Positions 5,573 to 56,541 of a stretch of DNA of 64,000 nucleotides are shown here, piece by piece. The first letter of the stretch is position 1. Each line of letters opens with the position of its first letter. Under the pieces are notes generated by a model. It was given only the letters and a program-made list of their open reading frames with translations, was not told the DNA's origin and searched no databases. Source of the DNA: Phallus indusiatus (Eukaryota; Basidiomycota; Agaricomycetes; Phallales; Phallaceae); NCBI GenBank assembly GCA_027605045.1, contig JAQFWX010000007.1, positions 1,969,710 to 2,033,709 of the forward strand, in the 5' to 3' direction. The translations under genes and the position numbers were made by a program.

Positions 5573-8500
5573 TAAGGATGGCCACGGGTATATACCCGCG
5601 GGTTCGGGTACCCGTTCATGGGTACCTGCGTCACTCATAACCCGTACCCGGATCCGCGGGTTTTTTACTTACGGGTAACAGGTACCCGTGGCAGGTACCC
5701 AGGTATTACCCGTTTTTCTACTTATACCCGGGTACCCGCAGGTTTCGCCCGCAGGTACCCAGGTTTCACCCGTTTTTTTACAGAACCTGTGTACCCGCAG
5801 GTTTCACCTGCAGGTACCCGGGTATGGAACTTTATTTTTTTACCAAAATTAACTAGTAACTACTACTATGTATCTACGACTATAGGTGTAGCCTTTACAG
5901 TTTCAGAAGAAGTATTTTTACCCCTACGCCAACCGGCCACCAATGTTTCCTTGAACATATCCTCACTCCCTAACTCTGGGAAAGATAACCATGAATTTAA
6001 AAGAACCGTCCGACGAATGTTATGATCGGTGAGATTGCAGCGAAGCGGCGAGACAATCCGTCCACTGAGCGAAAAAGCCCGTTCGACATCAGTAGAAGTT
6101 GCTGTAATAATATCAGGAGTTTGTATGAAGTGTCAAAGGAGAATGTACTTACCAGGTGCACCAAGATAATCTAATGCCATTTGCGCCAGAGCTGCTGGTA
6201 AGACTCCACTCTGACTTTGCGCATGCCAATACATTATTGGGTCATGGCAGTCAATGGTTCCGGTGGACAAATAAAGCTCGAGAGGATCCGGCCCTTGCAA
6301 GGTCATGTGGTTTGTGTCCCAAGCTTCAATTTCATCATATGTGCGCTGGGAAAAAAGATCATAAAACAGTAATATAACAATTGACATAAAACTTACCCGG
6401 GGTTTGGATGCACTCTCTTGCACCATTTTTGGGAGATACTTCTCGTTCCATATCTTGCGTACAATGTCTATTGCCGTTTGTATCCATTCCTCCGGCCATT
6501 CCTTCTGTTTGAAATATTGTGTCTTGTAGCGCGGATGGAGAACTTTCATTTGAAGATTCAGAATATAGCGTATGAATATGAGATTAGACGTAGTTACTTA
6601 CTCATTGCTGTACGGTAAATCTCACTCTGGTCAGATAGGCCGTAATACTTGTCTAGGACGTGAGTCCCACGCTTTGCAGCATGACGGACGGCATGATGCA
6701 AATCTTCATTGTCGATGATCCTGTCTAAATGTTCGCGAAGATAGTCGATTGTTGGGATGACTTGATAAATCAGCGCAACGTCTGAATGACTCATCTTCTG
6801 TGTCGCGACTTTGAAAGCCTGTAAAGATAAAATGTCAGTAAAGAAGATGGACAAGAAAGATCCATACCTTCAAGAGCGGTTGTAATTGTTCAATGATACT
6901 CCATTCATGAGCACGCAGATGGAATTTCTCCAGTTTGAGATGCTCATATCGAGCGGAAGTGCAGAGCTTGGTGACGGCCGGGCGATTGTGCAAATGTCGT
7001 TCCATGGCCTCAACGTGCGTGTTCCACCTAGTAGGAACTGCTTTGATAGGGGCCAAAGGTGTTATACCTTCAGCTTTCGAGCATTCAGCAAGCGCTGTGC
7101 GTTTGGTATCGGACCGAGCGAGTGAGGTAGCAAACCCAGTAACCTGATGTATTTAGTACTCAAAAAATGATAAGATGAGACATACAAACATACCTTCTTT
7201 AATGTAAACATGGCCTCTTTACGCTCCATGTTTGAAAGCGGCCCCAAAATGGACTCCACATCTTCCTCTATCTCATTGACAACGTCCTCCATCTGCTCAT
7301 CGCGGAAGATGTCAACATCATCCACATCCTCCGTTTCCTCATCCAGACCATCCTCGCCATCTTTTTCTTCATCAATCTCCATAATATCGAGTTCTTCTTC
7401 GTCTGGGTTGAGCTCTTCCAGCTGATTGACATCCTCATCGGACAGGGACTTGCCGGGTAAGAACCCACGAAGAACAGCCTTCTGTACGATTAGTTATCTG
7501 TTAAAGCAATAAAGAAACGTGCTTGCCTTTTCTGTGAGACTGAGGATGTGGTTTGTGCAGCGAACGCGCGACTTCTGACCACCCCAGCTTAGGATCTGTT
7601 TCCCAAGCTCAGTAGTCATAGTGTCGTTGTTTGACGCATTGTCTCCAGTCAGCGCAAGCAACTGTAGTAATATGAGTCCACCATTTGCATAATAATCAAT
7701 CCACGCACCTTATCCGTAAGCCCAAATCTTCCTAAAATCTTCAAAACCTGGTCCGCAAGGTTTTTCCCTGTATGGGAATGTGACGCTCTAGGTGAAAAAG
7801 GTGTAAGTTGTTATTGTAAGTGAATATGAGAAAGAAAAAGGCGTACCGAACAAAGTCAAGAATCATGTGTCGCATATCACCAGTTCTGTTATCAATCCAG
7901 TGGACCGTAAGAGCCAAAAAGGACATGGCTTTTCGCGAGGTCCACGCGTCCAGGGCTATGTGGATTGAATGGGTGTGTTTCTGAGCGTGAGTAAGAATAA
8001 ATGACAAGCTGAAAACAAGGAGAAAACATACTTGAAATAGTTCAACAACCTTCGCCATGGTGAGCTTGAACAACGTCTGAATGTCGCGGACTACCGATTG
8101 TCGCGATGGGACTTCCAGAGTTGGGTGTAGCATTTTGAATACCTCGATTACTTCAGCGTCTTCAATTATCGAGTATGGGCGGTTGCATTTGATGATCCAT
8201 TTCACAATGGCGAAACGGAAACCTTCACGCGTATATGTCGATCCTTTGGCAAAGTGTGCCATGATTTGGTTTGCTTTCGTGATCTCGGGGTCGCAGTCTT
8301 TGACGTGGCGGTTCAAGTTACCCGTTGACACGTCGTTGCAGTGTCGGGTGATTACTTTCGAGGGATTTCTGGAAGAAAGGGAAGGAAAGAAGGTAAGCCT
8401 GGGAATTTAATGAAGTAATTGTTGATTGGCTAACTTACTTTTTGCACGTGAAAGCGTAAACTAAATTACCGCGGGACTTCGTACGACTACCTTTGCTGTC

Positions 8501-9185
8501 TAGGTGAAACACTGCTGGCTTGAAATGATTATATACAGCGGATGTGAATTTGCGCCGCTTCCGGTCTATTCAAAGTGAGCAATGACAAATTGACTGTATA
8601 ATTGATATTACTTACGAAGAATTTTGGTATCCTCAGAAGCGTCAGTTGGTATTCCGTCATCATCTTCATCATTTCTGGAAGTATTAGTTACTGCTGCATC
8701 TTCGAGTTCATCGTCGTCCAATGTTGGATTGGGAGTCCCAGGCAGACTGGTATCGGAAATTACAGCGGCTGCGGGGGATGAAGATAGAATAGAATCTTCT
8801 CTTTCTGTATTTGACTTTTTAGACTTCTTTGAAGAGCGACCAGATTGAGTCTCTTTTGAGGCTGTTTTACCCTTCGAGGGTTGTTTGCGTTTCATGGTAG
8901 ATTTTTTTCATGGACCATTATGGGCTTCATATTTATAATAAAAATGCGGGGCGCGTCCGTCACGCCATGTAGTATTAAAGGAAAAAAAAAAGTAGTACCA
9001 GTTAAAAATTGATATTGCTAAAACGAGAAAAACCCGCAGGTATTAGAAAATCTCAGACAGTCATACCCGGATCCGCGGGTAAATTGGGCCACGGGTACCT
9101 GCCAACGGGTACCCGAAACCCGCGGGTCCAAACCCGGGTACCCGAACGGGTAACCCGTTTTTACCGAAACCCGTGGCCATCCTTA
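5573..9185 (-). mobile_element. Autonomous hAT DNA transposon
   Basis: 3613 bp, bounded by terminal inverted repeats starting TAAGGATGGCCACGGGT and flanked by a perfect 8-bp target duplication GGTGAGAT (5565-5572 and 9186-9193). An 8-bp duplication is diagnostic of the hAT superfamily. It carries a multi-exon transposase on the minus strand. Both subterminal regions (5580-5830 and 9030-9180) are dense in GGGTACCC and CCGCGGGT words, as expected of transposase-binding arrays. It is inserted in the RNase H part of chromovirus A pol. Confidence 0.95.
5866..8895 (-). CDS. hAT transposase (multi-exon)
   Basis: Starts at the ATG at 8895 with a Lys/Ser-rich, probably nuclear-targeting segment. A BED-type zinc finger follows (about 8560-8290; FTCK ... 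TRHC ... LNRHVKDC). The catalytic core includes ALDAWTSRKAMSFLAL (about 7950), an acidic Asp/Glu-rich insertion (about 7400-7200), and the conserved PTRWNTHVEAMERHL (about 7030). After a GTAAGT/TTACAG intron (about 6152-6102) comes the hAT C-terminal dimerisation motif (STDVERAFSLSGRIVSP), ending at the TAG at 5866-5868. I saw no obvious stop in the exons I traced, so it may be intact, but I could not verify every junction. The product would excise and reinsert this element and any derivative with matching ends. Confidence 0.85.
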
Positions 9186-9388
9186 GGTGAGATGCGCCTT
9201 CGAGAAAGTGTCACCATTCCTCCAAAGATCGTATGATAGCGAGCATCTCCTTGTCGTGAATCTCGTAGTTGCGTTCGACAGGGCTAAGGGCTTTCGAGAA
9301 GAACGCAACTGGGTGCCATTTACCGTCCTCGTTCGACAACTGTGAGAGAACCGCACCTGTTGCAAAGTCAGAGCTGTCTGCTTCAACC

Positions 9389-9950
9389 TAAGGCTCTCAA
9401 CGGGTTAGAGGTCGCACAGGTTTAACCCGCAGGTACCTGTATCCGTACCCGCAGGTCACGGGTACCTGTCACACAGGTACCCGGCGCCTAATTGACCCGG
9501 GTCGGGTACAGGTAGCCATTTTCGAAACCACGGGTACCCGTGCTAACCCGCCCTATAAGACATAGTGACAGGTGGGTGATTTTCGAGTGGTGTTTGTCGT
9601 GATTTTTTATTTATTTTTGCTCTAGAGAGCTCAAATCTTACTTAAAATGGAAATAAAAAAATATGCCAACAATATTTTTTAATTCTCTACAAGATAAGTT
9701 GGGCGCTTAAATAAGCGCCCATCTCGCTTAATAACTTAATCTAGTAACATCTAGTCACACGTGACATTACCTGCAGGTAACACACAGGTACCTGCAGATT
9801 ACCTGTTGTCACAGGTTGACCTGCCTACCCGCAGGTTGTCACGTGACCCGCGGGTTGAAACCCGGGTCAGGTCGAGGATACCCAAATTTTTGACACTGAC
9901 CCGCGGGTACGGGTACCCGTACCCGCGGATCCAACCCGTTGAGAGCCTTA
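9389..9950. mobile_element. 562-bp hAT-type MITE, copy 1
   Basis: Terminal inverted repeats TAAGGCTCTCAACGGGTT, with a perfect 8-bp target duplication CTTCAACC (9381-9388 and 9951-9958). There is no transposase ORF. It is rich in GGGTACCC, CCGCGGGT and CAGGTACCTG words. It is inserted in chromovirus A pol between the reverse transcriptase and RNase H. It is a near-identical inverted copy of the element at 13968-14529, and both are exactly 562 bp. Confidence 0.95.
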
Positions 9951-11861
9951 CTTCAACCCGGTAAGGATTAGCGGGGTTGGGAATGAGAAGAATGGGGGCA
10001 GAGGTGATCGACGACTTCAGAGTATCGAAAGCATGCTGACAAGTGTCGGACCAGACGAAGGGTGTATCTTTCTTGGTTAACCCAAACATGGGATTGGCAA
10101 CACGCGCGAAATCCTTGATAAACCGACGGTAGAAGTTGGCGAAGCCCAAGAAGGACTGAACCTCAGTGACGTTCTTCGGGACAGGCCAGTCTCTGACACC
10201 CGAGACTTTTGCGGGATCCATCTCTACGGTGTTCTCGGAAATGACGACACCTAGGTACTCGATTTTAGTCCGACAGAACTCGCACTTCTCCGCCTTGAGA
10301 TACAGCTTGTGCTCGCGGAGACGTTCGAGAACACGTCGTGTTACCTGGTCATGTTGTTCCCGATCCCGAGTATAGATGAGAATGTCGTCGATGTAGACGG
10401 CAACGACACCTTCCGAGATCATGTCTTCAAAGATCTCGTTCATCATCGTCTGGAAGGTGGCAGGGCTATTTGTGAGACCAAAGAACATCACCAGAGGCTC
10501 GAAAAGACCGCGGTTGGTGCGGAAAGCAGCCTTCCACTCGTCCCCTTCCTTTATCCGCACGTTGTTGTAACCCCAGCGCACGTCCAGCTTGGTGAAGTAT
10601 TGGGCACCTTGCAATCTGTTGATGAGCTCTGAGATCAGGGGCAGCGGGTAGCGGTTCTTAATCGTCATAGCATTCAATGCCCGATAGTCCTGGATGAGAC
10701 GAAGGGAGCCATCTTTCTTCTTAATGAAGAATACTGGGGACGCCATGGGAGACTTGGAGGGTCGGATTCGTCCAGACGCAAGGTTTTCTTCTAGAAACAC
10801 GTCTAACTCAGCCTGTTCGTTGGGCGACAACGGGTAGATCTTGCACGACTTGGGCTCAGAACCTGGCACAAGCTCTATCGGGTGATCCCACTTCTTCGAC
10901 TGCGGCAATGAGTCGAACGACTCCTTCGAGAAAATGTTGGCAAAGTCGTGGAACATCTCTGGGACAATATCTCGAAAACTTTTTGGGGCCGGTGCGTCCG
11001 AGTTGTTGGCATGGGCCTGGGCCAGTCGCTGGGAGATGGTCTTGGTGGCATATATGCGGTGTGCATCGGGCTTGTCGGGCAGCACTGTTATCGCGAATAG
11101 TCGATCACCTTCTTCAATCTCAGACTCAACGTCGACTAGGTCTGGAATGTCAGGATCGTCGGTCTCAGTGTCGTCAAGTTCAGGCAGAGGTGCGCGTCGG
11201 ATCTGCTGGAACGCGCGCTTAGAGAGTTTACCCGCTGGCCAGCGTGGAGCGCAGGATCGACAACTAGGACTGCAGCGCATGAACTCTACTTGACCAGTTG
11301 TGTAATCTATGACGGGATTGTGGGCCTTGAACCACGGCAGCCCAAACAAGACGGGATACTTGAGCGAGGTAACGGCGAACAAGGTGCGTTCAGAGTGATC
11401 CCGGAATCGAACAACCAGGTCGACGACGTGGGTGATAGAGCCAGCATGGTTGGGCGTACCATCGACATTAAACACGGGAATGGGCTTAGCAAGACATACG
11501 GAGGGAAGTTGATGTTTTTCGACAAAGTTGCGATCGAGAAACATACCGCTAGCCCCAGTGTCCAACATGGCCTTGCTGTGCAGCAGGGCTCCAGTGTCAA
11601 CACTTTGCAGTTCTACCGGGATCTCCAGCTTCTGCGTACCAGCAGTGGCAGCGAGTCGGTATTCGCTTGGCAGTGCACGACGCTGAGAAGGCGACAGCAT
11701 ACATGGAATGGAAACAGAGCGTGTAGCAGGTGGAGGCGATTCTTTGGGTTTATCAGGGGATGCAGCAGGGGTAGTTAGATTCGAATCAGGAATGTCATTT
11801 TGTTCGCGATCTATGTACAAAATGCCGAATCTATTAGATGTCGGCAACGAGGGTGCATCTG

Positions 11862-13512: not shown

Positions 13513-13662
13513 AGAGAGAGAAAGGAAAATGGGGTTTTTAAGATGGAGCAGAGGGGTCGGTTATAGACGGGACTCGAAGGAAAAATACGACACTGCGGTA
13601 GTCGGTGTCGAGCGCGATTTTTCAATAACGAGTGTCGATAAAAACGGCCAGTCTGCGAGTAG

Positions 13663-13675: not shown

Positions 13676-14642
13676 TGTTAGGGCTACTCAGCTCACACTA
13701 GAGGGAGGGGATCCTAAGTAATATATTGGAAGATAACTATACTACTCACCTAGAGGGAGGGGATCCTAAGAGAACAAGCTTAGGGACCCTCACTCTAGGT
13801 ACAGCTACTATATACATAAAACGACGATGCGGCGTGCGGCCCTGACACAGCTAAGTGCCAGGCGCTCAAGCCGAGCCTAAGCGACGTGATGTCACGGGCA
13901 TCACGCCGTGTACGAGCGCGCAACGCGCGCGAGTAGAGAAGGTGAAATATGGACGGAGAGAATAAACTAAGGCTCTCAACGGGTTGGATCCGCGGGTACG
14001 GGTACCCGTACCCGCGGGTCAGTGTCAAAAATTTGGGTATCCTCGACCTGACCCGGGTTTTGACCCGCGGGTCACGTGACAACCTGCGGGTAGGCAGGTC
14101 AACCTGTGACAACAGGTAATCTGCAGGTACCTGTGTGTTACCTGCAGGTAATGTCACGTGTGACTAGATGTTACTAGATTAAGTTATTAAGCGAGATGGG
14201 CGCTTATTTAAGCGCCCAACTTATCTTGTAGAGAATTAAAAAATATTGTTGACATATTTTTTTATTTCCATTTTAAGTAAGATTTGAGCTCTCTAGAGCC
14301 AAAATAAAAAAAAAATCACGACAAACACCACTTGAAAATCACCCACTTGTCACTATGTCTTATAGGGCGGGTTAGCACGGGTACCCGTGGTTTCGAAAAT
14401 GGCTACCTGTACCCGACCCGGGTCAATTAGGCGCCGGGTACCTGTGTGACGGGTACCCGTGACCTGCGGGTACGGATACAGGTACCTGCGGGTTAAACCT
14501 GTGCGACCTCTAACCCGTTGAGAGCCTTAGAATAAACGGATGGTAGAGGTAATGCACGGGAAATATAAATAAGATAGAAACAGATATATACCGATGATAA
14601 TAAATAAGGAAAAATGAGGGGATGCAGTAGCGTACCCTGACA
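13676..14642 (-). repeat. 5' LTR of chromovirus A, split by a MITE
   Basis: The LTR text runs 13676-13967, is interrupted by a 562-bp MITE, and resumes at 14530 to finish CCCTGACA at 14642. It contains the promoter-like GTATATAG and the proposed transcription start. Confidence 0.9.
13968..14529. mobile_element. 562-bp hAT-type MITE, copy 2
   Basis: Same terminal repeats as the copy at 9389-9950, in reverse orientation, with a perfect 8-bp target duplication GAATAAAC (13960-13967 and 14530-14537). It is inserted in the 5' LTR of chromovirus A. Only a few substitutions distinguish the two copies, which suggests recent mobilisation. Confidence 0.95.
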
Positions 14643-14889: not shown

Positions 14890-15209
14890 TGTAACGCTTC
14901 GTTACTTTTTATAGTGTACTGCGTACGGTACACAAGTTTTATCACGCTGTAGTCCTCACACCAATATAACAGACCAAGGGTGCTGTATTATGATGGTGTA
15001 AAAACAAAATGCGCGTGCTGAATCAGCACGCGCGTAACTACTACTAATGTACAGTTATTACATAATGGCTCGCCGCGTCACGGCGAGCCAGAGGCGTTAA
15101 GCGCCTCTATTATTAGAAGTACTAATAGTAATTACTGCAGAGGGCGAAGCCCTCTGCATATGCCCAAGTGGCATATACTCAATCCACCGCATACGGTGGA
15201 TCCGTTACA
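14890..15209 (+). mobile_element. Solo LTR, palindrome-rich family
   Basis: 320 bp, starting TGTAACG and ending CCGTTACA, with a perfect 5-bp target duplication CACAC (14885-14889 and 15210-15214). It is tiled with hairpins: GTAACG/CGTTAC, GTGTAC/GTACAC, CGCGTGCTGA/TCAGCACGCG, GGCTCGCCG/CGGCGAGCC, AGAGGCG/CGCCTCT, GCAGAGGGC/GCCCTCTGC, ATATGCC/GGCATAT and ATCCACCG/CGGTGGAT. It has no similarity to LTR-A or LTR-B. It shares terminal bases and architecture with the complete element at 18963-20941. Confidence 0.88.
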
Positions 15210-17826: not shown

Positions 17827-18221
17827 TGTTAGGGCTACTCAGCTCACACTAGAGGGAGGGGATCCTAAGAGAATATATTGGGGGAGAACTAACTACTCAC
17901 CTAGAGGGAGGGGATCCTAAGAGAACAAGCTTAGGGACCCTCACTCTAGGGACTGCGACTATATACATGAAAAACGATAGCGCGGCGTGCGGCCCTGACA
18001 CAGCTAAGTGCCAGACGCCCAAACCGAACATAAGCGACGTGACGCCGTAGGCGTCACGCCGGGTCTGACGCGCGCGCGCGAGTAGAGAAAGTGGAATAGA
18101 GACAGAGGGAGCAAACGGAGGGTGGAGATAATATATGGGAAATATAATTAAAGTAGAGGGAAATATATACCGATGATAATAAATGAGGAAAAATGAGGGG
18201 ACGCGGTAGCGTACCCTGACA
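17827..18221 (-). mobile_element. Solo LTR-A
   Basis: 395 bp, TGTTAGGG...CCCTGACA in + coordinates, more diverged from chromovirus A than its own two LTRs are from each other. The flanks (ATACC and GTATC) do not match, so it may derive from recombination between different insertions rather than a simple solo-LTR event. It truncates the KDZ transposase. Confidence 0.88.
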
Positions 18222-18957
18222 GTATCCCCATCTAACATCGAGCTTCGTTGTCAAGTACCGATATCCGGGAACGGTAATAGATACTGTAATGTATTTTAGT
18301 CGCTGAATATAACACCAATAACTGTCACCATTGGTTGACGACAATCAGGACTTGGCCTCAACCTATAAGAGGTTGTGCCACGACAGTCTTCTTCAGGATT
18401 TGTCCTGACATTCGTCACGAGCGTCGAGTTCGTCAAGGACGTTTCTGATGTGTGCGTTCCGAGCTTTGAGAGCCGCGAGCTGTATCTCGTATTGAATGAT
18501 ATCAAGCTCGACGATAATGAAGAAAACTTCAAGATGTAGCTCTCGGCAACGACGGATGGCTTCCGTCGCTGCAAGTCTCGAGGGAAGGTCTCGATGTTCA
18601 ATGATGAATAGAATAGAGAAGGAGAGTTGTTATAGAGATATCGAACTACGTTCGATATTAAGTCTGAAGAACTATCTACGTGTATGCTAGGGTTTATATA
18701 CACGTCAGATAAATAATTCTAGCTCAGTTCGAAATAGATTCCGAACTTGAGAAATGTAAACAAGTCGTGAGATTCGTAAGTAATATCAATATATGCAGGG
18801 TATGATGTCTCATGTGATGAACATGAGGTGTGCGGGGATGAGAGCTGTGCATACATGGACCTACGTTCGTCATCTATGATCTCATAACCAGAACGTGCGT
18901 GGAATATTCTAGAAAGGCCTTTCCACGGATGTTCCAGGAGTTAAGAGAGACGGGTAC
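18222..18957. other. Unidentified repeat-like DNA with an open frame lacking a start
   Basis: The minus strand carries an open frame (about 18620-18395) with a helical, charged composition (for example LAALKARNAHIRNVLDEL), but it has an upstream stop and no ATG. A TATA-like TATATACACG lies at about 18695. It is probably the remnant of another transposon into which the hairpin-tiled element inserted; the same ancestral sequence resumes at 20947. Confidence 0.35.
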
Positions 18958-18962
18958 GTCTC

Positions 18963-19264
18963 TGTAACGGATTTGGGATATAGGAATGGGCCCCCCTGGG
19001 GCCCATTAATGGCCTAGTGCCCATGCAGTGCCTTTGGCACTGCAGCAGTAGTACTTGCGCGTCACAGCGTGACGCTTAAGCGCCCGTCACACCCTTACAG
19101 CGGTGTGACCAGTAGTTACATTAGTTAATCTTAATTTTACCACTACTACTGCATGTAATTCCCTATTAGCCTTATTGAGCAATAGACAGGAATTCTGTGC
19201 ACTTGTGGGAAAATAAGAAAAACCCTTTATCAGACCCCCCTGTGGTCTGATAAAAACTGTTACA
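18963..19264 (+). repeat. 5' LTR of the hairpin-tiled element
   Basis: 302 bp. The hairpins are ATGGGCCCC/GGGGCCCAT (18986-19006), GCAGTGCC/GGCACTGC (19025-19043), GCGTCAC/GTGACGC (19059-19075), GTCACACC/GGTGTGAC (19086-19109) and TTTATCAGACC/GGTCTGATAAA (19226-19254). No promoter element is evident. Confidence 0.92.
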
Positions 19265-19292
19265 TCTTTTTGCACAGCTCCATCCACAGATA

Positions 19293-20327
19293 GTGGAGCT
19301 ATTGCTGAACTCTATGTCTGCATCCATCCATCCCTCTGCTTCTGATAAGCAGAGTAAAAAAGTCCTAGGCTATGTCCTAGATACTTTTCAGAGACTGAAA
19401 AGTACCCATTCTGAGTCATCAATGATCAGAAGGTCTGCCAGATTGGCAGATGAACTTCAAGAGCTGGATGCTCTTCTGTCCTCTGCAGGTGACTGCAGAT
19501 TAAAAATTGATAACCCTGTTTTACCCAGGGTAATCTACCTGAGCCCAGGTGCCTATGACCTGGCTCTGGCACTCTTTAAGACATTGAGTGCTTCATTTTA
19601 CCAGAGGTGGAGGATAACCCCTCCTCCTCATGTCTCCCAGCCTGCCCCTGCAGGCAGGGAAGGTCCCCAGGCTAGTTCAGCCTGTAGTTCCATCACTACT
19701 AGTGATGTAAAAGCTGGAAAAAGGGTTCTCAGACTCCTCCCAGCTCCCCAGGCAGCTCCAGAGGTACCCACTCCTCCTGCCTGTCCCCCTGCTCCTCCTA
19801 AGAGCAGAAAACCTTCTGGAGTCGCTCCAGATGATCTTCCCAAGCCTATAAGGGAAGGAAAACATGCTGAGAAGCATCCCAGCTCCTCAGCAACATCCTC
19901 TGAGACCAGGAGGGCATGTGCTCCTCCTACCTCAGTTCCTGTCCTTTCTGACAGGAAGGACACACCTGGGTTCGTCCCAGGTGATCTTTCCATCACTAAA
20001 AGTGATGATAAACTTGCTGTGGTGCTTTTTTGCCCCCCAGCAAAGTCCCCAAAGGCTGTGGAGGCATGTGCTCCTCCTGCCTCTGCTCCACCTGTCCTTA
20101 AGGACAGGAAACCATCACAGGGTAGTAGTTCTGCTACCTTACCAAAGAAAAGACCATTTGACAGTGTCAATGGACCCTCCCTTTTCTTTGGAACACTGCC
20201 CCAGGCCCCCATCTCCTCCTCAGTGAGGTGGGGCAGTGATTTCCCAAGGAAAAGAGTCAGATTTTCTGACTCTGATACATCTGCTAGTCATAGCAGATTC
20301 TCCAGGGATCTTTTTAAGGTTCCCTGA
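19293..20327 (+). CDS. Pro/Ser/Lys-rich ORF of the hairpin-tiled element
   Basis: 344 codons, ATG to TGA, beginning 28 bp after the 5' LTR. The first ~110 residues look structured (a helical region with RSARLADELQELDALL, then VIYLSPGAYDLALALFKTL). Residues of about 115-290 are Pro/Ala/Ser-rich and probably disordered. The C-terminus is basic and Ser-rich (FPRKRVRFSDSD). I recognise no gag, protease or polymerase motif. The DNA of the whole ORF is tiled with more than 25 short inverted repeats, so codon choice is constrained by base pairing. It may be a gag-like RNA-binding protein packaging its own structured RNA, but that is inference. The nucleotide pattern alone may also have produced an open frame. 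Confidence 0.65.
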   Translation: MELLLNSMSASIHPSASDKQSKKVLGYVLDTFQRLKSTHSESSMIRRSARLADELQELDALLSSAGDCRLKIDNPVLPRVIYLSPGAYDLALALFKTLSASFYQRWRITPPPHVSQPAPAGREGPQASSACSSITTSDVKAGKRVLRLLPAPQAAPEVPTPPACPPAPPKSRKPSGVAPDDLPKPIREGKHAEKHPSSSATSSETRRACAPPTSVPVLSDRKDTPGFVPGDLSITKSDDKLAVVLFCPPAKSPKAVEACAPPASAPPVLKDRKPSQGSSSATLPKKRPFDSVNGPSLFFGTLPQAPISSSVRWGSDFPRKRVRFSDSDTSASHSRFSRDLFKVP

Positions 20328-20639
20328 CCACTTACAGGATGGATAATTCTGTCAGTCTGCTGCCATGCTCCCAGTGATTTATCTCAGTCATTTTTGGGCT
20401 ACAGCGGACTTATTATTGGACTTAAATGGTCCAGTACATTCCCTCATCATCACCTGATGAGTTTTATTTATTTTTATTTTGTCCTTCCTTTCCCATTTCC
20501 ATTCCTTATTCCCCCCTCCCTATTTGCGCTTTTGCGCGTCACGCGTCACGCGTGACTGTCACGTTACGCGCCGCGTGACAATCCCTTTTCTCCTGCCTTT
20601 TCTTCAGTTTGACTTGGTTCCCAAGTCAGCCGGGGAAGA

Positions 20640-20941
20640 TGTAACGGATTTGGGATATAGGAATGGGCCCCCCTGGGGCCCATTAATGGCCTAGTGCCCA
20701 TGCAGTGCCTTTGGCACTGCAGCAGTAGTACTTGCGCGTCACAGCGTGACGCTTAAGCGCCCGTCACACCCTTACAGCGGTGTGACCAGTAGTTACATTA
20801 GTTAATCTTAATTTTACCACTACTACTGCATGTAATTCCCTATTAGCCTTATTGAGCAATAGACAGGAATTCTGTGCACTTGTGGGAAAATAAGAAAAAC
20901 CCTTTATCAGACCCCCCTGTGGTCTGATAAAAACTGTTACA
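20640..20941 (+). repeat. 3' LTR of the hairpin-tiled element
   Basis: 302 bp, showing no difference by eye from the 5' LTR. It is preceded by GGGGAAGA, a candidate polypurine tract. The hairpins upstream of it are GTCACGCG/CGCGTGAC, TGTCACG/CGTGACA and TGACTTGG/CCAAGTCA. Confidence 0.92.
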
Positions 20942-21090
20942 GTCTCTATTCGAGTTGGGAGGTTGATTAGGATGACTGAACGCGAAGGTCTTATCATGAG
21001 TGACGTAAGTGAGATAAGATTACGGAGATAAACGGTAAATGATCGGATATGGATTACGTAACGTTACCGGAAGTGATGTCATGAATCGGA

Positions 21091-22208: not shown

Positions 22209-23239
22209 GCGATGTGATGTCACGGGCATCATGCCGGGTATGAGTGCACAACGCGTGCGAGTCACTGGAGACATTGTAGGGTTTGACCAAAAAAAGGATC
22301 CTAATAAAATTATAGTTCGAGGTATAGGCATATGACAATTCACTAACTTGTAATATCATATTATAACTAACACTCAGATTAAGAGATTCTGAGTTGAAAA
22401 ATTGTGAGTATGTTGCTATTTTTATCTTAGTTAAATCATGTAAGAATTTTTACTTATATAACACTATCAATAACTTTTTCTATTCAATCAAATAGTATAC
22501 AAAGTAAAACATATATTATTATTAACCATAGTGGAAAATTATATAATGAAGTTGATATAATTACTTATCAATACAATTTTTTATCATAATTTTGAGGGAG
22601 TGGGAAATACTGAGTTTCTATGTAATTTTAACTTGAAGTCACAGTATGTGACATTAGAGTTTTCTCAAGATTTTCCAGAAATCCCTGTATTATTAAGGTT
22701 TTCCCAGGAAAACTCTGATATTACACAATGTAATCTCATGCTTAAAATTAAGCTTTTTCCATGCATCTAAATTATAATAGAAATATATTTTCACAATAAA
22801 TATAAAAAAGATTTTTAAAACATTCTTCAATATAGATGATGATCATGTAAGTTTCATTCTATTTATTATTTTACTGAATGGATAACATTAATCATAGACT
22901 TATATGATAAAAAATTATTACATAATTTAGCCAATATAATTATAGCAGTATACTGACAATTTTGCAAGCCGGAATCCCTTGACCTGAGTATTAGTTATAA
23001 TATGATTTTGCAATTTGATAAATTGTTAATAGCCTATGCCTCGAACTAAAATTTTCTTAGGATCCTTTTTTTGGCTAAACCCTACAATGTCCCCAGTGAG
23101 TAGAGAAATGGGAATAGAGACAGAAATAATAAATGGAAGATAAAGATGAAATATGGGAATGATATATATAATAGAGATGAAGTAATACCGATGATAATAA
23201 ATAAGGAAAAATGAGGGGCGGCGGTAGCATACCCTGACA
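22209..23239 (-). mobile_element. LTR-A fragment interrupted by a CACTA-like MITE
   Basis: LTR-A text runs 22209-22262 and resumes at 23099-23239, ending CCCTGACA. The MITE at 22263-23098 sits between them with a 3-bp duplication. The 5' part of this LTR is missing. Confidence 0.8.
22263..23098. mobile_element. CACTA-like MITE (836 bp)
   Basis: Begins CACTGGAGACATTG and ends CAATGTCCCCAGTG, flanked by the 3-bp target duplication AGT (22260-22262 and 23099-23101). CACT[A/G] ends with a 3-bp duplication point to the CACTA (CMC/EnSpm) superfamily. The inner sequence is AT-rich, partly inverted-repeat (the terminal ~140 bp of both ends match) and has no ORF, so it is non-autonomous. A truncated second copy is at 2133-2561. 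Confidence 0.85.
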
Positions 23240-47119: not shown

Positions 47120-47760
47120 GTCCGCTCGTTGACATGCGGCCTTTCTTGAAGCACAATCCATTGAGATTTTTCATGGCTTATTTTAGACAAAAAACGTCCT
47201 ATTGTATTCTATCGATATATCGGGAACATCGGCCAGATTCACAAACAATTCAGCGGGTCCCACGAACATCTCTGGGAGATATCACGCTTGTACCCGACGT
47301 TCGAATTCAGGACATTTATTTCTCTCATGAAAAAAAATTCTTCATTAAACTTCAGGTAAATCGATATTTTTTTTTACCAAAAAGATAATACTTGACCTGT
47401 GTCAAATTTCTCAGCATGCAAGGTGTTCACCAAGGCGTCAGTCCTGATTGATGAGAGAATTAGATTCACATATGTCAAAGCAATAACCAAACCACGAGTT
47501 TTATTTTGCATCAAGTAGAAGACGAGAATTTTACTGCAAGATGCTAACTTGGCCTAGTTCATTACTCTGTTGGTTTCTGCGGACGCAGATTCGGCGTTTT
47601 ACGCTGGAAGTTTGAGCAGAGTTCATTACCGGGCCGGTTGTTGAAGGAATGAACAGCTTGTCAGATGCGACCATTCCTTAGAGATATTTGGCACAATCGA
47701 TGTTGACAGTTTCCTTGTTGCTTTTCGACATATTTGCGACGACATCGTCTAACAGCCTTT
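47120..47760 (+). pseudogene. Degenerate ORF, left copy
   Basis: Coding-like text with frame changes and stops. It has RLYPTFEFRTFISLMKK, an intron-like GTAAAT...CTCAG (about 47355-47414), and a terminal VDSFLVAFRHICDDIV followed by a stop at about 47750. The paralogous remnant at 51600-52240 keeps DSLLVAFRRNCDDIV. The family is not recognised. Confidence 0.45.
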
Positions 47761-49459
47761 TTCCGATTTAAAAGAGCACCGCATCACCTGATGTGTTTCT
47801 ATGTTATTTATAACTCCCAGCGAAGGGTGTACAGACAAGAATGGAAGGATGGTCACCCATTGTTGACCAGTTAATTGACAGATCATGTGTGTGGATGCCT
47901 TTCTTGGAAACAAGGCTTACTCGAATACAAAGTATTCTCACTGAAGCTCTGGATCACGAGTTCACACGTTACAAACGCGGCCGATTTCAATTTTCTCTCG
48001 GCGCCGAGCCACCTTAGAAGGTCAATATTTTCCGATTAACATTCTACTCAGTCTCAGTGCCACCATTATGTAGTAAGCGTTTTATGTGTTATAAACTGAT
48101 TAAAATATAATCTGAGCCAAGTTCCTTACACATCAAACTAAAACTGTCAACCGCCAGCGCCGTAGAGCCTCACATTGTGTCATCGAAGTTATTCCGAATT
48201 GGGAATCTTAATTATGAGTTTTCGTCGCTGTCTGGGGGGGCATGCCAACCCTAAACATTGTCTACGCCATCCGAACGGAGCATCCGCTCGCTTTGTTCTG
48301 GCTGACTCTGTCAACAACCAAGGCACGTCGGCAAGCCCCAGTCTAAACTTCTGCACTCATCATAGAAATATTATCAACGAGGGTCCAAAAAGGTAATATG
48401 CGGGTAATATTCTTTTATTCGTGGTGTTATCTTCTGATGGTCGGAGGGTGGCTGCATCATTTGAACGATCACTCGGAAAGCTGCTATGTACTTTCTATGT
48501 CCGAGTCTATGTCATTTTCCCATTGAAATATAGTTCGTTGTTTGTCGTGTGCCGTATGTAAAGATTATGGACGAGAGCCTTGCAGAAGGTTAGATTCCTA
48601 AAAGGCTTATAAAGCTATATCAGCAACGATAAGTAACTGGGAGTTCAATTCATTGTATTGTTTCTTAAGAGTAGTGGTATCGTATCTTTCTCAGATAACA
48701 GTCTATCGGAAATTTGAAGTCGTTTGCTGAACTGTACTTGCGGAAAACTTGTGCAGATTCATTCCTTCCAAAAAAGCAGCTTTCAACGCCAACCATCACA
48801 TCTGAGCACAATAAAGGCTTACGATTGTAACATCAAGTTTCAGCTGACCCCTCTCCCGATATTGTGAGCCATGGCCGTAGCGTACTGCGTAAGCACTGAG
48901 TACTGAGATTTGAACGTTTGAACGTTGAACCAGAGCTGACAGACACGTTGACCAATGACCGCGTGACGCCGCACGCGTGATGACACGGGTTTTTGACTCC
49001 ATCAGCGGCGCTTCACGAGCTATGGCGGAGCATCTCAGCGTGCTCACTCATTCATGTCTTAATATCGTCCAAACCTGTACCAAAAGAACAACCTTTTTCT
49101 TCATGTTGAAGCTTCTTTTTTCCAATGCTAACGTGATCAAATACAATGGCCGGAAAAATACGTGCATTCTTATTCGTGGAAACGCACCGACCTCCGAGTC
49201 TGCTTACTGACGAGGTATTATCTCATTCAATCTGACTATATCTTCCGATCGGGGTGGTGTAATACTGTGCTCTCAGCCTCGGGTCTAATCACAAGCTAAA
49301 TGAATCAGAACATGCAAATCGTTCATTGAGCTCGACTTTCGGATAACAACCTTTCCCTAGCGCCCTTCGCGAGTCACTCTCCCTAAACCCAAATTCTATA
49401 TATTTTGATGGCTTTTTTCTTGATTAATCCGAATATCTTAAGCTACGCCTCATATATCT

Positions 49460-50918
49460 ATGCCTGGCCTTATAAACACGAACGTTATTGCCAGAACTAT
49501 CTCGCCATCAAGTGCGGAATACTTGAACTTGATCATCAAACAAGCCCCAGACTCGTATATCATAGATTTATGTTCAGGTCGTTTCTTAAAGCATCAGTTG
49601 CATTTTGATTAATTGTTGACTTGACTCAATTTTCAGTTTCTGTTACCGTTCTCTTATTATGGGATATGATGATCACCTATGACCAAGAAATCGAGCTTAT
49701 TTGGAGGTTAGTGTCGTTATCACATTTACAACATCACTTCCTCATTTCATATACTTACGTCGATATTACCATCTGTTTATTTAATTCTTACATCTAGATC
49801 ACGAAGAAATATTGTGAATTATCTCTTCTTTGTTATTCGGTATCTAGCCTTGGGCTTATCGGTGTAAATGGATATTCATTTCTCTTTGCGTAATCTCTCA
49901 ACTGACTGGTTTCTCCTTCTAGAATGATGGTTATAGTAAACCTAGGCCGGTTTCCAAAACAAAATCTCTGTCGCACCATCTATGAATATGTTTTCTGCAT
50001 ATGTAGTGTCGTATTGTTAAGCACTGGGGATATGCTGCTTGTTTATCGGAGTACGTCTATGACTAATAATCTGCTTCTTTGATATACCATCTTTACTTCT
50101 ATGGATCTAGTCTTTGCGTTCTACGAAAGAAATCGTAAAGTTCTGGTTGGTCTGATCACTCTCTGGTTGTTGAACATTGCTGCGCTTCTGGTTCTCTCTA
50201 TTCTATACTCCATGGAAGTGCATATCGTTCATATCCCCACAGTCATCAAACAGGGTATCACTGGAGAATGCATTGTCTCAGACCTCCCTGCGTTTGTGCG
50301 TGACATTTGGTAATATTTCCAAATCAACTTAAGTATGTCTATGAACCTTCTGATTTTTCTTTTGATGTTCTAGGGTATCTGAGTTGGTTTTCCACGGTAT
50401 TCTCTACATCTTGGTTATAGCAAGGTACCGTGTGTTTCAATAGACATCTCAGCCAGAAAACTGAAAAACATTACCGGAGGTCCATCTATTTATTGACGAC
50501 CGTTTCATGGAAAACATCGGCTATATCCCGTGTTTATTACATTTTTATTCGAGATGGATTTTGTGTATTTGCCCATCTTTTAGGTGAGTTTATCGATTTG
50601 AAAAAAAAATAAAATAAACGCGAAATCATGACGAATTTCTTCTACAGTAGTCTTTATCATTTCGGCCCTTCGACTCAATATAGCTCCTGATACAGTGATA
50701 ACTCAGTGCGTAAGCTTGCAAGCCTCCATTTTCTCCGATGATAATAACAAAAAGCACTTTCCTTACAGAGGAGGCATTTTAATCATTGGGATGACAGTAA
50801 GATTTAACAAAACACTTGCCTATAATTGAACGCGATTCTTACGACGGCATTATATAAAGGGAAGTCGCCTAGTTCTCAACCTGAGAAGTCTGAACAACCC
50901 CTCTTGCGATCACTATAA
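49460..50918 (+). CDS. DUF6533-type membrane protein, left paralogue (truncated)
   Basis: An integral membrane protein of an expanded agaric family of unknown function. It starts at ATG 49460 (MPGLINTNVIARTISP), which aligns with the paralogue at 57625. The DUF6533 signature LLLWDMMITYDQEIELIW is followed by several hydrophobic segments (NYLFFVIRYLALGL; FAFYERNRKVLVGLITLWLLN). About seven exons with short introns. In the last exon a TAA at 50916-50918 replaces the Tyr codon found in the paralogue, and a frameshift follows, so the C-terminal tail is lost. It may still yield a shortened membrane protein or be a recent pseudogene. Confidence 0.65.
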
Positions 50919-51599
50919 TTATTGGATAGGGAAAAAAATCCTGTTTGATACTATAGGTGTTGTTGAACCAGGCTCCGACGAATCGGGTATGAACTCGTTC
51001 GAGTTGACACCATTGAGTCCTACATCGGCTACGAATATGGATTAAAAGCACAGTTAGCACGCTGACGGGCATAACTAGACAGTGTTTCCTAGTTAGTGTA
51101 TGCTGTATAATCTGGGTTCGGGGTTTAGGTTTAGTAAGAAGGGGCGTTAATCAAGCGTTCAAACATCGACACGGAAATATATACAACACGACTAATTACG
51201 CACCATTGACAGAGCTGGCAGAATCATGATGCTAAGACAATCCAGCCAACTTCAGTTTGAGGTTGTCAGAACGCAGCCACTGTGAGAAAAGCAACGACTT
51301 CGTCGTTTTTATGTTTCTAATCATTCAACCATAATATGGCTTAAGTACGTAGTGAAATAACCTTATCGTCAACATGCAGGTGAATTGATGTCAACGTTGG
51401 TGCTACATACGGAATACCCTTCTTTCATTTCACGTGTACTAAAACAGGAGCATAACTACAAATAAAAATCACGCTTCGTGAAAATATAAGAAACGTTTGT
51501 CAAATATCACCCAATCATAATCTTGAATTCATAATGTACTGGCGAAATCTCCAGTGAAACATTCTTCCATTCAGCGCTAGTAGGCTGTAGTCGAACGTT

Positions 51600-52240
51600 C
51601 GCTCGTTGACATGTTACCTTTATTAAAGCACGATACTGAGATTTATTTTAGCCAGAAAAAACGTGTTATCGTATTCTATTGACATAACGGGAACATCGGC
51701 CAATTTCACAGGCAATCCAGCAGGTTCCATGAACATCTCTGGGTGCCATCGCGCTTGTATCCGATGTTCAAATTCAGGACATTTGTTTCTCACATAAAAG
51801 AATTATTTTCTAATTAAATCTCAGGTAAATCGACATTTCTCTTTAACAAAAAAAATAACAAATTCTGACCTGTGTCGAATTTCTCAGCAATGTGTTCACC
51901 AAGGCGCCAGTCCTGAGGCCTGATTGATGAGAAGTCTTCCGAAGATTACGTTCGCACATGTCAGAACAATAACCAAACCACTAGTTATGTTCTGCATCAA
52001 GTAGAAGGCAAGAATTTTTGGCAAGGTGCAAACTCAGTATAGTTCATTCAATACTTTGCTGGTTCCTGTGGAAGCAGATTCGGCGTTTTACGCTGAAGTT
52101 GAGCAAATTTCATTGCCGGGCCGGTGATCGTGAAGGAAATGAACAGCTTGCCAATTGCGACCTTCTGGAGGTGCTTGTCACACCCGATGTTGACAGTTTG
52201 CTTGTTGCTTTTCGACGCAATTGTGACGACATCGTCTAAC
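51600..52240 (+). pseudogene. Degenerate ORF, right copy
   Basis: Copy of the remnant at 47120-47760. It keeps RVIVFYWHNGNIGQF and ends DSLLVAFRRNCDDIV before a stop at 52239, with stops in between. The function is unknown. Confidence 0.45.
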
Positions 52241-53051
52241 GGCCTTTCTCTGGTTAGAAGGACACTGCGTTACATGTCAATGTATTTATAACGAAATTGC
52301 ATACACGAATGAAAGTTGATCACTTATTTTTCCTGGTTTGGTTGACAGATTATGCGTGCTTATGCCCTCCTTGGAAACAAAGCTTTCCCGGAAACTAATT
52401 CATAGAAGTTCTGCTCCACTAGTTCACACGTCAGAAAGCGGCAAGTTTCTTTTTCTGGGCGGTTGACTGAGGGTTCATTTAGAGTTCATTTTGTCATCGA
52501 AGTTATTCCGCCCGAATTGGAATAATTCATTTAAGAATTCTCATCGCTGTCTGGGGGACATGGTCAGTTCTAGATCTTGTCAGCGCCATCTGATCAATTT
52601 GAATTAAAAGAAGTCCGAACGGAGCATCTGCTCGCTTTGTTCCGGGCAACTCTGTCAACAACCAAGGCACGTCGGCAAGCCTCAGACTAAACTTCTGCAC
52701 TTGTCTTAGAAATATTATTAACGAGGAGTCCAAAAATGTATTACGTGGTATTTTTTAATTGTGGTGTTATCTTCTAACGAACGGAGGGTGACTGCATCAT
52801 TTGAACGATCACTCGGAGAGCTGCCACACACGACAATGTATCGAAAACAGAACACATTGCTCGAGCATGAATATAGACCTGTGCCTCGTTTCAAGGAACG
52901 CGTACATTGAAGGATGCCCGTCACATGTTAGAACTAGCTTGAGGCAAGTTTACACCGTGGTCTTTCATGGTCAATAATACATATGTTTGAAAGCAGCATC
53001 TAGAACTACTCAACGACTGCTCAATGCCAAGGAGATCATCTTCAAAACGAC

Positions 53052-53400
53052 ATGAAATCCACCTTTCTTTTTACTGCACTTCTGACTCTCTCTCTGGGCG
53101 TCGAACATATTTCAGCTCAAGTATTGAACCTTATTCAAAGGAACATACCAATTTGTTAGTGTAATTACCGACGCCAACAGAATCCGTCTTGCGCTGACAG
53201 ACCAAGGTTTGAACAACCAAATTATCATAACCCTCTCTTTCTTGAACAGAACAATCAGGTGGTATTCACCTGTCTTCGTGATATTGATTCTAAGCCAATG
53301 TTAACTTATGACATCTAGTGGAGCGTCGTGCCTTCTCAAACCGGCTTTTAATATCGTTGCCACAAGCGCAACCAGCGGAAACAATTTTCAAGTAGAACTA
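53052..53400 (+). pseudogene. Decayed copy of the small secreted-protein gene
   Basis: Begins MKSTFLFTALLTLSLGVE with a signal-peptide-like start, parallel to the gene at 55903. It then loses the frame within ~35 codons (stop after IQRNIPIC), though TDANRIRLALTDQG-like text persists in another frame. It is inactive. Confidence 0.65.
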
Positions 53401-55902
53401 TGAATCGAACCGTTATATGGAAAGCAGCAGGTAGCAATGACGTTGGATTTACGTGAGATTCTTCCTCTTCTTCTGTATATCGATGTACAAGGGAATTCCC
53501 CGCTACTTTTAAGGTTCCTTGTTACGTCTTCAGGCAGAAAGATACGGAGGGTCACAGCTGCAACTGATGGTGGGAGTCTTGTCAGCCAGAATAATACCAA
53601 CAGAATTTCCGCTTTGTCCCTGTCAGAGTTTCTCGAACGAACCAACCTACAACTATGCCTTACACAGAAGTGCCAACTTTTATATATAAGTGTTTACGTT
53701 AAAGATGTTTAATTTTGTTATTGACTATTGTTTTTAACTAGTACAATATCTTTGGAACTGAGAGCGCCTGAGGCTTGGATAATCGTGTGTTTCCTCACTG
53801 GAGGTATGAAATATCAGGTTGATAGAGACCATAACTGAGGTACTTGAGATCGACGCTTCAAAGCTTCAACATGCTTTAAGGAAATAATTGAACGTCGAAG
53901 TGACGAGGTCCTGAGACCTGAGATTGACTTTGAGCTGCAAACGCAGCTGTCTGAGTCAGTCTGACCGACGCGTCGCAGGCGAAATAAATCGTGCGAATTA
54001 AAAGCATTATGAGTAAGTGCGTCATTTAGTCGTCCTATTAGTAACACAATCATTAAAGGGAGTCCAAAAGGCCGCAACCTTGAATGCGGTGATGAGAACT
54101 TGGAGAAGACTCAAAGAGGTTCAATGAGTTACGATCCTGAGAGCGTCGGCAGCACCTAGGCAGCGGCAGGCCTAAGCGCTAAACGACTTCAGTCTTACGA
54201 GTCAAAATCGCTTGCGAGGCAGGCCGCAGCACACGAATATTGTCAGTATCATGGTGCTTGAAAATGAAGTTCTATTCTAAGATCTCTGAATTTATGGGAA
54301 ATGCCGAAAAATACGAGAAAGATGTTTTTTGTTCCTTTTTTTGCCGAATCTCATCCTGACTATTAAAATTAGTATCAACGAGCCAAATTTGTCCTAATAG
54401 TTCTACGTCCATCGGGTACTTGAGAGTCGTTTATGCCCCAATTGAAACAAAGCTTTCGCGAAGTCTGCCTTGTCTTCCGAATGAGAAGAAACGTTTTCTC
54501 GATAACTCCACTGCCGGCAGTCTCAAGTGTCAAAATGCATCCTTTCCCTCAGCACATATCGATCAGGTGCTCTCCAGACTTTTCTACATCCTTGACTGCA
54601 TCAAACTTTCTCCGCACAGCTCACCCAAACTTCTCATGAACCAAGATTTCAATCTGTTTACATATTGTCGTCATATTCGAAATGGGGGCATTATTTCTTC
54701 AAATACACTTGCCACTTGGTTCCAAACAGAAGTTTTCAAGTAGATGACTATAAGACTCGGAAAGGACACCACGCCTTGTTTGTTTATCAAGATGACCTAT
54801 CTCGATTATTTATCCGTCTGACATGGGGAGCATAGAATTACACTATTCTCCACACGTTGAGTAGTCCCCTTTTTGCTTCAACTGTTCCATAAAATGACGT
54901 GTCTAGGTTCTTAACAGACCACCAAGTGTGGGGTGTGACTTCTTCTGTTGATAAACTTCGTCCGATGACGTATGTACAGCACGAAACTCTCGGACGAATT
55001 CAAAATCAGGCATAGAAGTTAGAACAAGAGGTTATTGACACTTGAATAGAATTTAAAGGAGACAATTTCTGATAACGTCTCTGTTAACAGCCACTGGATC
55101 TGGGTCAGAAGATTCGAAACTGAAAAAAGTTTGATACGGCTTCCCGAGATGTCCTGACTACGCGCCTGCAGCCTATGAACATGGGCAAGTACTGGAGTTT
55201 ATGTAAAGTGGAATTTAGCTATGCTAATGTGCTGAGCGTGTCTTGGTTACAAGAATTTTAATTCTTCAACGTAAAACGTTCAGATAGCGGATGGGCGACT
55301 CCGCGTCGAATTGAGATTTCTATGGGAATATCGTTATTCACATACACCATGTTGTCTATTTTCGGGTTTACTCCGCTAAAATGTCTAACTGCTGAAAAAG
55401 GTAAAGCCGATAAGTCGATACAAGGTTCTGGGACTGTCCGGGGACTTAGGTACGTTCTTCCCTGTCAACGGCAGACGTAAAGACCAATGTTTGATCATTT
55501 TGAGTTGAAAGTTTTCCGAAGGCCACATTCTTTGCTTCGTCAAGCTTGCGCTTCGATGACCTATGACCATGTTGATACCACGGCTCATCATTTCATTCCC
55601 GTATGGACGTGTAAGTCACTGACAAGCGGCTGTATAGTAGGAAGTATGCTGTTACGCATTAAAGACTTATAATCGGAGTAAGGAGCCGTCAGATGTCATA
55701 ACCTGACTAGGTAAACATGTAATGCCATTTTGAGGAATTTCCAAGCTCTCGCTTGCATTCATGTAACGAAAGTAACGAACCATTGTACCTTTATGCTCAT
55801 TGGTCGAAGAAGAATCTTAGTGTTCTCGAAAGCTATATAATGAGCACATTTCAGTGGACGTTTTTCTTCAGACGATCATCAGCTCTGACCTACAAAGCAA
55901 AC
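53401..55902. other. No gene supported
   Basis: Contains only short open frames (for example 54420-54743) without recognisable domains, start context or repeat identity. Confidence 0.35.
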
Positions 55903-56541
55903 ATGAAATTCACCTCTATCCTCTCTACCGCAGTTGTAGCCCTCTCTCTGGGTGTCGAGTACATCTCAGCCCAGACCCCCGTTACTACAGGTACTTACCA
56001 GTTCGTCAGTATGGTCACTGACGTCAACGGAAACCGTTTCGCGTTGACGGACCAGGGAATATCAAACGCCTCCGTTGTGATAACCCCGCTTACCTTAGGA
56101 CAACTGAACCAAACTGTAGATACACCTACCTTACTCCGTGTTTGTCTCATAAATTAACAGCATATTCATAGTGGTCGGTTCAAAGCACTCCGATCACTGG
56201 CGGCTTTATTATCGCTTCAAACAGTTCTAGCCTCTTCATTAGCCCTGCGAATGGTGTTCCTGGAATTTTGGTCAGTTCGGCAACCTCATTCGTATGGCTC
56301 AGCAATTCCAACAACGTTTTTGGCTTTACGTGAGACAATTATGTTCTCTTGAGAATTGAAAAACTATGCTGATTTCGTTCCTACCTTCAAGATTCATTGA
56401 CTCAATCAATGGGACTACCAACTGGGCGCTGAGGAGCCTTCCCGTAGCTTCAACTCACTGAATGCTGTGAATAGCTCTTCTGCTACTTGTAATGGCGGTC
56501 CTAATCCTCTGAATCTCTGGGTCCCTATCAGAATTTCTTAA
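55903..56541 (+). CDS. Small secreted protein
   Basis: Starts at ATG 55903 with a clear signal peptide (hydrophobic AVVALSLGVEYISA, cleavage before QTPV). Exons: 55903-56115, 56172-56329 and 56392 onward, with consistent phases at GTAGAT/CATAG and GTGAGA/TCAAG. The mature part is rich in Ser, Thr, Asn and Gly, with short beta-like segments (TYQFVSMV, GFIIASNSSSLFIS, SFVWLSNSN). The frame meets TGA at 56459-56461. A neighbouring frame stays open to 56541 and reads coding-like text (SATCNGGPNPLNLWVP), so a one-base shift near 56440 is possible. The family is unrecognised; secretion is inferred from the signal peptide only. Confidence 0.65.

Follow-up and report, generated by a model that had tools for sequence, protein, structure and literature searches.

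The stretch of DNA analysed here (the window, 64 kb) holds at 18963-20941 a short element bounded by LTRs, which a preliminary description had presented as a near-continuous series of short inverted repeats. Its features are listed below in window coordinates, together with the solo LTR of a larger family.

14890-15209, minus strand: solo LTR of a 9.2-kb Ty3/gypsy family, 7 hairpins; target-site duplication CACAC by reading
18958-18962, unstranded: left target-site duplication GTCTC, read from the sequence
18963-19264, plus strand: 5' LTR, 302 nt, TGTAACGGAT...CTGTTACA, with 5 perfect hairpins, from sequence reading and repeat comparison
18985-19007, plus strand: LTR hairpin AATGGGCCCC-cct-GGGGCCCATT; loop AGG at 1 of 40 places where the arms are intact
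19024-19044, plus strand: LTR hairpin TGCAGTGCC-ttt-GGCACTGCA; loop AAA at 5 of 43 places where the arms are intact
19259-19271, plus strand: LTR-end/internal junction GTTACATCTTTTT, common to the 9.2-kb autonomous family
19271-19277, plus strand: TGCACAG, complement of CTGTGCA in the LTR (19195-19201); candidate Tf1-like self-primer, suggestive only
19314-20327, plus strand: ORF of 337 aa, function unassigned; 26 perfect hairpins in 19293-20327
20632-20639, plus strand: purine-rich GGGGAAGA directly 5' of the 3' LTR, polypurine-tract-like, with a putative role as such
20640-20941, plus strand: 3' LTR, with a 300-nt block identical to the 5' LTR
20942-20946, unstranded: right target-site duplication GTCTC, read from the sequence

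The two near-identical LTRs with TG...CA ends (302 nt by reading, with a 300-nt block at 100% identity) and the target-site duplication are those of an LTR retrotransposon, and a polymerase of its own is absent, the one long plus-strand ORF having no Pfam match. The element is thus a non-autonomous LTR retrotransposon, and a young one; the identical LTRs, the GTCTC on both sides and the lack of a polymerase had all been reported in the preliminary description and were found again. The reading frame is open from a GTG at 19293 to the stop at 20327, its earliest in-frame ATG lying at 19314. No Pfam family matched the ORF at E<=0.1, and of 8000 scored protein candidates (those sharing most words) none was a homolog at E<=1e-3. 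All copy and family comparisons were made within one genome, where at least 40 LTR matches were scored among 80 candidates (96-100% identity), the internal part was present in three of the 20 LTR regions first examined, and at least five copies bear the ORF, the window one included, with the frame open in four others, these counts from genome searches being lower bounds. Two types of short element were distinguished (window 19263-20639 and L031:810-2186), with LTRs 96-98% alike, near-identical 3' untranslated parts, internal parts at about 66% nucleotide identity and ORFs at 52% amino acid identity (dN/dS 0.61 over 279 codons). Since LTRs and 3' untranslated parts are shared but the ORFs have diverged, the comparison suggests that ORFs may have been swapped by recombination.

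Stems were counted as perfect inverted repeats with arms of at least 6 nt and loops of at most 12 nt. One LTR plus the internal part (1677 nt) contains 36 of them, against 4.78+-2.18 (maximum 10) in 100 dinucleotide shuffles, so that the near-continuous series of the preliminary description stands far above its controls. A single LTR accounts for 5 (0.79 in dinucleotide shuffles, maximum 3) and the ORF for 26 (3.75, maximum 8), in keeping with the more than 25 that had been claimed for it; the ORF also exceeds 100 codon shuffles keeping protein and codon usage (4.0+-2.1, maximum 10). The hairpins named earlier as examples were recovered where their loops do not exceed 12 nt, and ACTGCCCCA/TGGGGCAGT, with a longer loop, is visible in the sequence. 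A transcript had been expected to form a string of stem-loops; over its first 800 nt, the ORF has a folding energy of -341.5 kcal/mol, against -245.5+-6.4 in 20 shuffles (z -15). With arms of at least 7 nt, the enrichment ends at loops of about 20 nt for the long families; for the short element it reaches about 30 nt.

Across the 64-kb window, the background is a median of 5 stems per 1677 nt, and the other peaks, with 20 stems near 13601 and 16 near 8801, both overlap other repeats. Two 566-nt copies, 98% alike, lie in opposite orientation at 9388-9953 and 13965-14530; because of their ends (TAAGGCTCTCAACGGG) and the 8-bp duplications apparent by eye (CTTCAACC; GAATAAAC) they are considered hAT-like, and they are hairpin-dense (9 stems, 1.6-1.7 in shuffles) without carrying an RT. 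An LTR-like stretch at 17828-18222, parts of which recur in the window, has only 3 stems (shuffle 0.7), and an AT-rich one at 22501-23000 (24% GC), part of inverted repeats, has 8. The diverged direct repeats at 47681-52735 and 49596-59869, about 4.3-4.5 kb and 8.1-8.3 kb apart and 80-91% alike, are probably duplicated genes.

Hairpin-tiled autonomous families

The solo LTR at 14890-15209 led to a 9.2-kb element at three loci (L055, L056 and L057), with Pfam matches to gag, zinc knuckle, protease, RT, RNase H, integrase (an rve match at E 7e-06, below the Pfam curated cut-off), SH3_Tf2-1 and Chromo. RT, RNase H and integrase stand in Tf1-like order and are accompanied by a chromodomain and a Tf2-1-like SH3, so that on its domains this family, called A below, would be classed as Tf1-like chromodomain Ty3/gypsy. 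The nearest proteins to its RT reach 63% identity (best 120 of 642 matches), and the species-named relatives among the matches listed, from Phanerochaete, Trametes and Mycena, are Agaricomycete proteins; judged by these relatives of the retroelement, the host is probably a fungus. In L055, two further ORFs lie 3' of the integrase (7466-8311 and 8478-9092), neither above the Pfam cut-off, one being coiled-coil-like below it and the other without any Pfam match.

This family is tiled end to end, at 17.4 stems/kb: L055 (9.7 kb), L056 and L057 hold 169, 174 and 173 stems, counts which take in some flank and, in L056, also an inserted solo LTR. A sister family, whose RT protein is 80% identical, shows 12.4 and 8.9 stems/kb at the two loci counted, where arms of at least 8 nt number only 2 and 3, against 72 in L055. 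In four of the six junction loci examined, the LTRs of this sister family carry 6-7 stems (against about 1), the remaining two loci having a family-A-like LTR with 5 stems and a 156-nt piece with 2. L079, considered as a possible intermediate (72% aa), turned out to be a 99.9% nucleotide copy of the sister family. The eight other RT loci reach 1.7-5.2 stems/kb against 1.8-3.0 in shuffles (z -0.4 to 2.7); they are distant comparators, since their RT identity to the 9.2-kb family is 31-34% in the six that align. The density exceeds the codon-shuffle expectation in all six coding stretches tested, among them gag-pol of family A (70 stems vs 12.1, maximum 23), its integrase (23 vs 3.3), the ORFs 7466-8311 (24 vs 3.9) and 8478-9092 (11 vs 2.4), and the sister RT (19 vs 3.7). 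Tiling as a trait of the short element only is therefore ruled out. The preliminary description, which knew of no standard retroelement class with this property, missed that it belongs to a group; the tiling itself holds, and the element is no isolated class, since larger, pol-bearing elements share the trait.

The window element and the 9.2-kb family have in common the LTR start TGTAACGGAT, the LTR end GTTACA and the junction GTTACATCTTTTT, whose 14-nt form with a leading C has 97 sites in the genome and none in the reversed control, the window element having T there. Because LTR ends and LTR/internal junction are shared, the window element is presumably mobilised in trans by the 9.2-kb family. 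A 7-nt complement that might act as a self-primer was found in the window element and in family A, none in the sister family being convincing. In the long element, LTRs are 89% and internal parts 98% alike, and modular recombination is apparent from such comparisons in both short and long elements.

Loops, stems and pairing in related copies

The genome has 121 places with the hairpin TGCAGAGGGC-NNN-GCCCTCTGCA, which belongs to the 9.2-kb family, and a hand count of the loops at 100 of them gave TTC 81 times, GAA 13 (two of these being the LTRs of one element), TTT 3, and AAA, GAC and GTC once each. In the window family, the loop of TGCAGTGCC-NNN-GGCACTGCA is TTT at 38 and AAA at 5 of 43 places, and that of ATGGGCCCC-NNN-GGGGCCCAT is CCT at 38, CTT at one and AGG at one of 40, copies with broken arms going uncounted since the patterns demand perfect arms. 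Reverse-complementing the common loops gives exactly GAA, AGG and, in the window family, AAA; within the 9.2-kb family, AAA is the reverse complement of the minor TTT, and GAC of GTC. All three LTR hairpins tested have reverse-complement loops in different copies, but the one coding hairpin tested (8-nt arms) shows no flip, with GAT in 40 of 40 places. Small deletions were also seen in two of the hairpins, in 1-2 of 39 LTRs. In one element, C153, the loop is GAA in the 5' LTR but TTC in the 3' LTR, and because the two differ in orientation some flips may have been made in the chromosome rather than by RT. Moreover, a loop flip needs a pre-existing hairpin, so that flips show strand switching and not the origin of the hairpin.

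As regards the stems, 9 of 27 hairpin centres coincide between the window ORF and the other ORF type, where 2.2 are expected and 0 of 2000 shifts reach 9. Doubly changed, still-paired pairs between these types number 17 and 21, depending on which ORF-type copy defines the stems, against 2-15 and 5-12 with slid partners, an example being TCTGCAG/CTGCAGA vs CCTGCTG/CAGCAGG. RT copies at 91.7% identity have 17 of 23 centres in common and a compensated pair (ACGACCCA/TGGGTCGT to ACAACCCA/TGGGTTGT). The RTs of family A and of its sister (71% identity) have only 4 of 29 centres in common, a number that 102 of 2000 shifts attain (1.4 expected), and several places hold overlapping alternative hairpins. 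The conservation of pairing that the preliminary description had proposed to look for is thus present between the two ORF types, with compensations enriched, but fails as a stem-by-stem rule between the autonomous families, where density persists while individual stems turn over.

Copies about 98% identical were compared at a handful of loci chosen by availability, each difference being scored from both copies. The arms had 45 differences; a neutral simulation gave 61+-6.6 and was as low only once in 200. In the loops there were 75, against 45 simulated. Selection could also account for the low arm change, which came mostly from one of four comparisons (7 vs 17.1), another being not low (21 vs 19.5). 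Arm protection was not seen in the 39 short-element LTRs, where arms, loops and remaining sites have 0.10, 0.29 and 0.10 shared variants per site and 0.18, 0.29 and 0.08 singletons. Clean creation of a hairpin was not seen between close copies, whose differences are mostly single transitions and include two doubly changed, still-paired cells (one site, both directions). Changes were not concentrated in one arm between family A and the sister RT (0.98 vs 0.83+-0.24, 20 stems), and between the two ORF types they were more balanced than in the control (0.60 and 0.31 vs about 0.8).

Pairing in the stems is almost entirely Watson-Crick, and G-U pairs are few. Stems with one mismatch in the 9.2-kb element comprise, at medium stringency, G.T 3, A.C 20 and other 21 (shuffles 0.8, 2.2, 5.5); at the strictest setting 2, 11 and 6 (0.2, 0.6, 0.8); and at the loosest 14, 31 and 44 (4.0, 6.0, 19.1), while two copies of the short element gave 6, 4 and 16 at the loosest (2.4, 2.2, 8.7). 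Of the local RNA pairs in the 9.2-kb family, 4.0% (plus strand) and 8.4% (minus strand) are G-U; the corresponding shares are 4.0% and 6.5% in the window element and 7.1% and 11.5% in the sister, against 11-13% in controls (other LTR loci and window background). Both strands fold in excess, with plus/minus z values of -8.7/-8.0 in the 9.2-kb family and -9.6/-6.8 in the window element, the plus strand of the former being slightly more stable (dMFE -46.1 vs -41.7). Among pairs broken between close copies, G.T cells number 23 and A.C cells 14, counted in both directions.

The arms are lopsided in composition, C-G pairs having C in the 5' arm 382 times and G there 269 times in L055, with the same bias in the window element (85 vs 61), its relative (67 vs 38) and the sister (202 vs 163), and weakly in the background (156 vs 136). 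Intrastrand switching predicts a base-pair asymmetry (5' G/T) that the arms do not show; the weak trend present runs the other way and is shared by the background.

Origin of the hairpins

We lean, with a confidence that stays just short of even, to the reading that a group of Tf1-like chromodomain Ty3/gypsy elements became chains of perfect hairpins, in LTRs and genes alike, by template switching made mostly by reverse transcriptase. On DNA, the growing strand would switch between the arms of an inverted repeat and copy the opposite arm; such copying would homogenise arms and flip spacers, so that hairpins would be made and kept perfect. Most of the switching would take place as the group's own reverse transcriptase makes cDNA, the polymerase-less window element being copied by this enzyme too, and purifying selection on proteins would leave mainly silent versions in the coding parts. 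In yeast, template switching between the arms of inverted repeats is reported to bring about arm homogenisation and spacer inversion (PMC8604942), and it has been argued that template switching can create and maintain hairpins (PMC8794818).

The reading rests on the stem density beyond codon shuffles, the low counts at the eight distant RT loci, the short loops, the rarity of G-U pairs, the ends and junction common to short and long elements, the reverse-complement loops, the nearly mismatch-free arms and the turnover of stems. On the last three of these grounds the palindrome-forming replication error is the best supported of the roles suggested in the preliminary description, whereas packaging and Dicer evasion, as RNA-level roles, find little support in the G-U pairing. 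We infer that DNA-level switching, both perfecting and creating inverted repeats with protein selection as a filter, is the best-supported mechanism. The group's own RT would be the agent, since the likely helpers and their passenger are tiled and the other sampled RT loci are not, and in view of the modular recombination. A bolder version, possible and less probable, is that this RT lineage writes palindromes by habitual fold-back or arm-to-arm switching, its own gag, pol, accessory genes and LTRs and a polymerase-less passenger having been re-encoded as end-to-end perfect hairpins, a heritable mutational signature acting in trans. The preferred reading is weakened by the RT-less but hairpin-dense hAT-like pair of the window, by the balanced arm changes, by the missing base-pair asymmetry, by the coding hairpin that shows no flip, by the opposite loops of C153 and by the failure to catch a hairpin cleanly being created.

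Selection on RNA, whereby the genomic RNA is kept folded for packaging, stability or shielding from small-RNA silencing, as in viruses with structured genomes, would account for the strong folding excess and for the centres and double compensations common to the two ORF types. The overall deficit of arm changes (45 vs 61+-6.6), the slightly stabler plus strand, the short element's G.T 6 to A.C 4 and, weakly, the G.T surplus among broken close-copy pairs point the same way. Nevertheless, such selection should favour G-U pairs on the RNA strand, where they are rare and rarer than on the minus strand, and G.T mismatches are not favoured over A.C in the 9.2-kb element (3 vs 20; 14 vs 31). Moreover, most stems are not conserved between the two autonomous families, and in the 39 short-element LTRs the arms are at least as variable as the other sites. 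Plus-strand RNA selection as sole cause is therefore disfavoured by mismatch types and G-U shares; it fits worse than template switching on DNA, and we consider it unlikely.

A little less likely still is selection on DNA, with hairpins in the cDNA or cruciforms serving integration, protection of single-stranded cDNA or protein binding. Watson-Crick pairing that works on both strands and short loops would suit it, and in three families a hairpin at roughly comparable LTR positions combines a TGCAG/CTGCA base with a tip that differs yet still pairs; but no motif common to the many hairpins is seen by eye, positions turn over strongly between families, LTR arms show no sign of protection, and a need for more than 160 sites per element is hard to explain. 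Much the same low probability is given to host-wide template switching at inverted repeats in chromosomal replication, merely more visible in these elements, with which the opposite loops in the two LTRs of one element and the dense hAT-like pair agree, although the eight other RT loci lie near shuffle level and the window has a median of 5 stems per 1677 nt under the same host replication. Chance or base composition as the cause of the tiling is ruled out by the dinucleotide and codon shuffles, with nothing found in its favour, and its probability is practically nil.

If RT is the agent, as the preferred reading of template switching would have it, the group would possess a polymerase with a distinctive mutational signature which could be tested in vitro, and hairpin density could reveal the helper of a non-autonomous element. 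In addition, genes apparently encoding a working RT and yet holding dozens of perfect hairpins illustrate the reach of synonymous freedom. The many inverted repeats, in scores of copies with some loops flipped, form a natural record of template switching; RT as the agent would also bear on whether long perfect stems come from selection or from copying errors.

Comparison with known systems

No description of hairpin-tiled LTR retrotransposons was found in the titles and abstract openings of the papers listed, and no DNA of relatives from other species matched in viral and genome contig collections. The 9.2-kb family has the same domain set as Tf1-like chromoviruses and differs from them by the hairpin tiling of the whole element and the two extra ORFs after the integrase. 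TRIM, LARD and TR-GAG are small non-autonomous LTR elements, which the window element resembles in its LTRs, target duplication, lack of polymerase and presumed mobilisation in trans, and from which it differs by its tiled hairpins and a Pfam-less ORF open in five copies. Because this ORF is kept open, the element is not a gene-free TRIM, and the Gag domain that defines a TR-GAG was not found among Pfam families at E<=0.1, a divergent Gag being possible.

RNA viruses with genome-scale ordered RNA structure show a folding excess along the whole genome, and a whole-length excess is also found in these elements, which differ in having few G-U pairs, a similar excess on both strands and perfect short palindromes. 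For the mitochondria of Nematomorpha, genes are reported to contain perfect inverted repeats that come and go between species, imperfect ones not being in excess, and template switching was suggested (PMC6649704); those palindromes are mitochondrial and reach 284 bp, whereas here they are short and number more than 160 per 9.2-kb mobile element. The yeast arm switching (PMC8604942) is alike in arm homogenisation and spacer inversion, TTC/GAA flips included, but there it consists of scattered events in host genes, with 10 spacer inversions, and here it would extend over a whole element.
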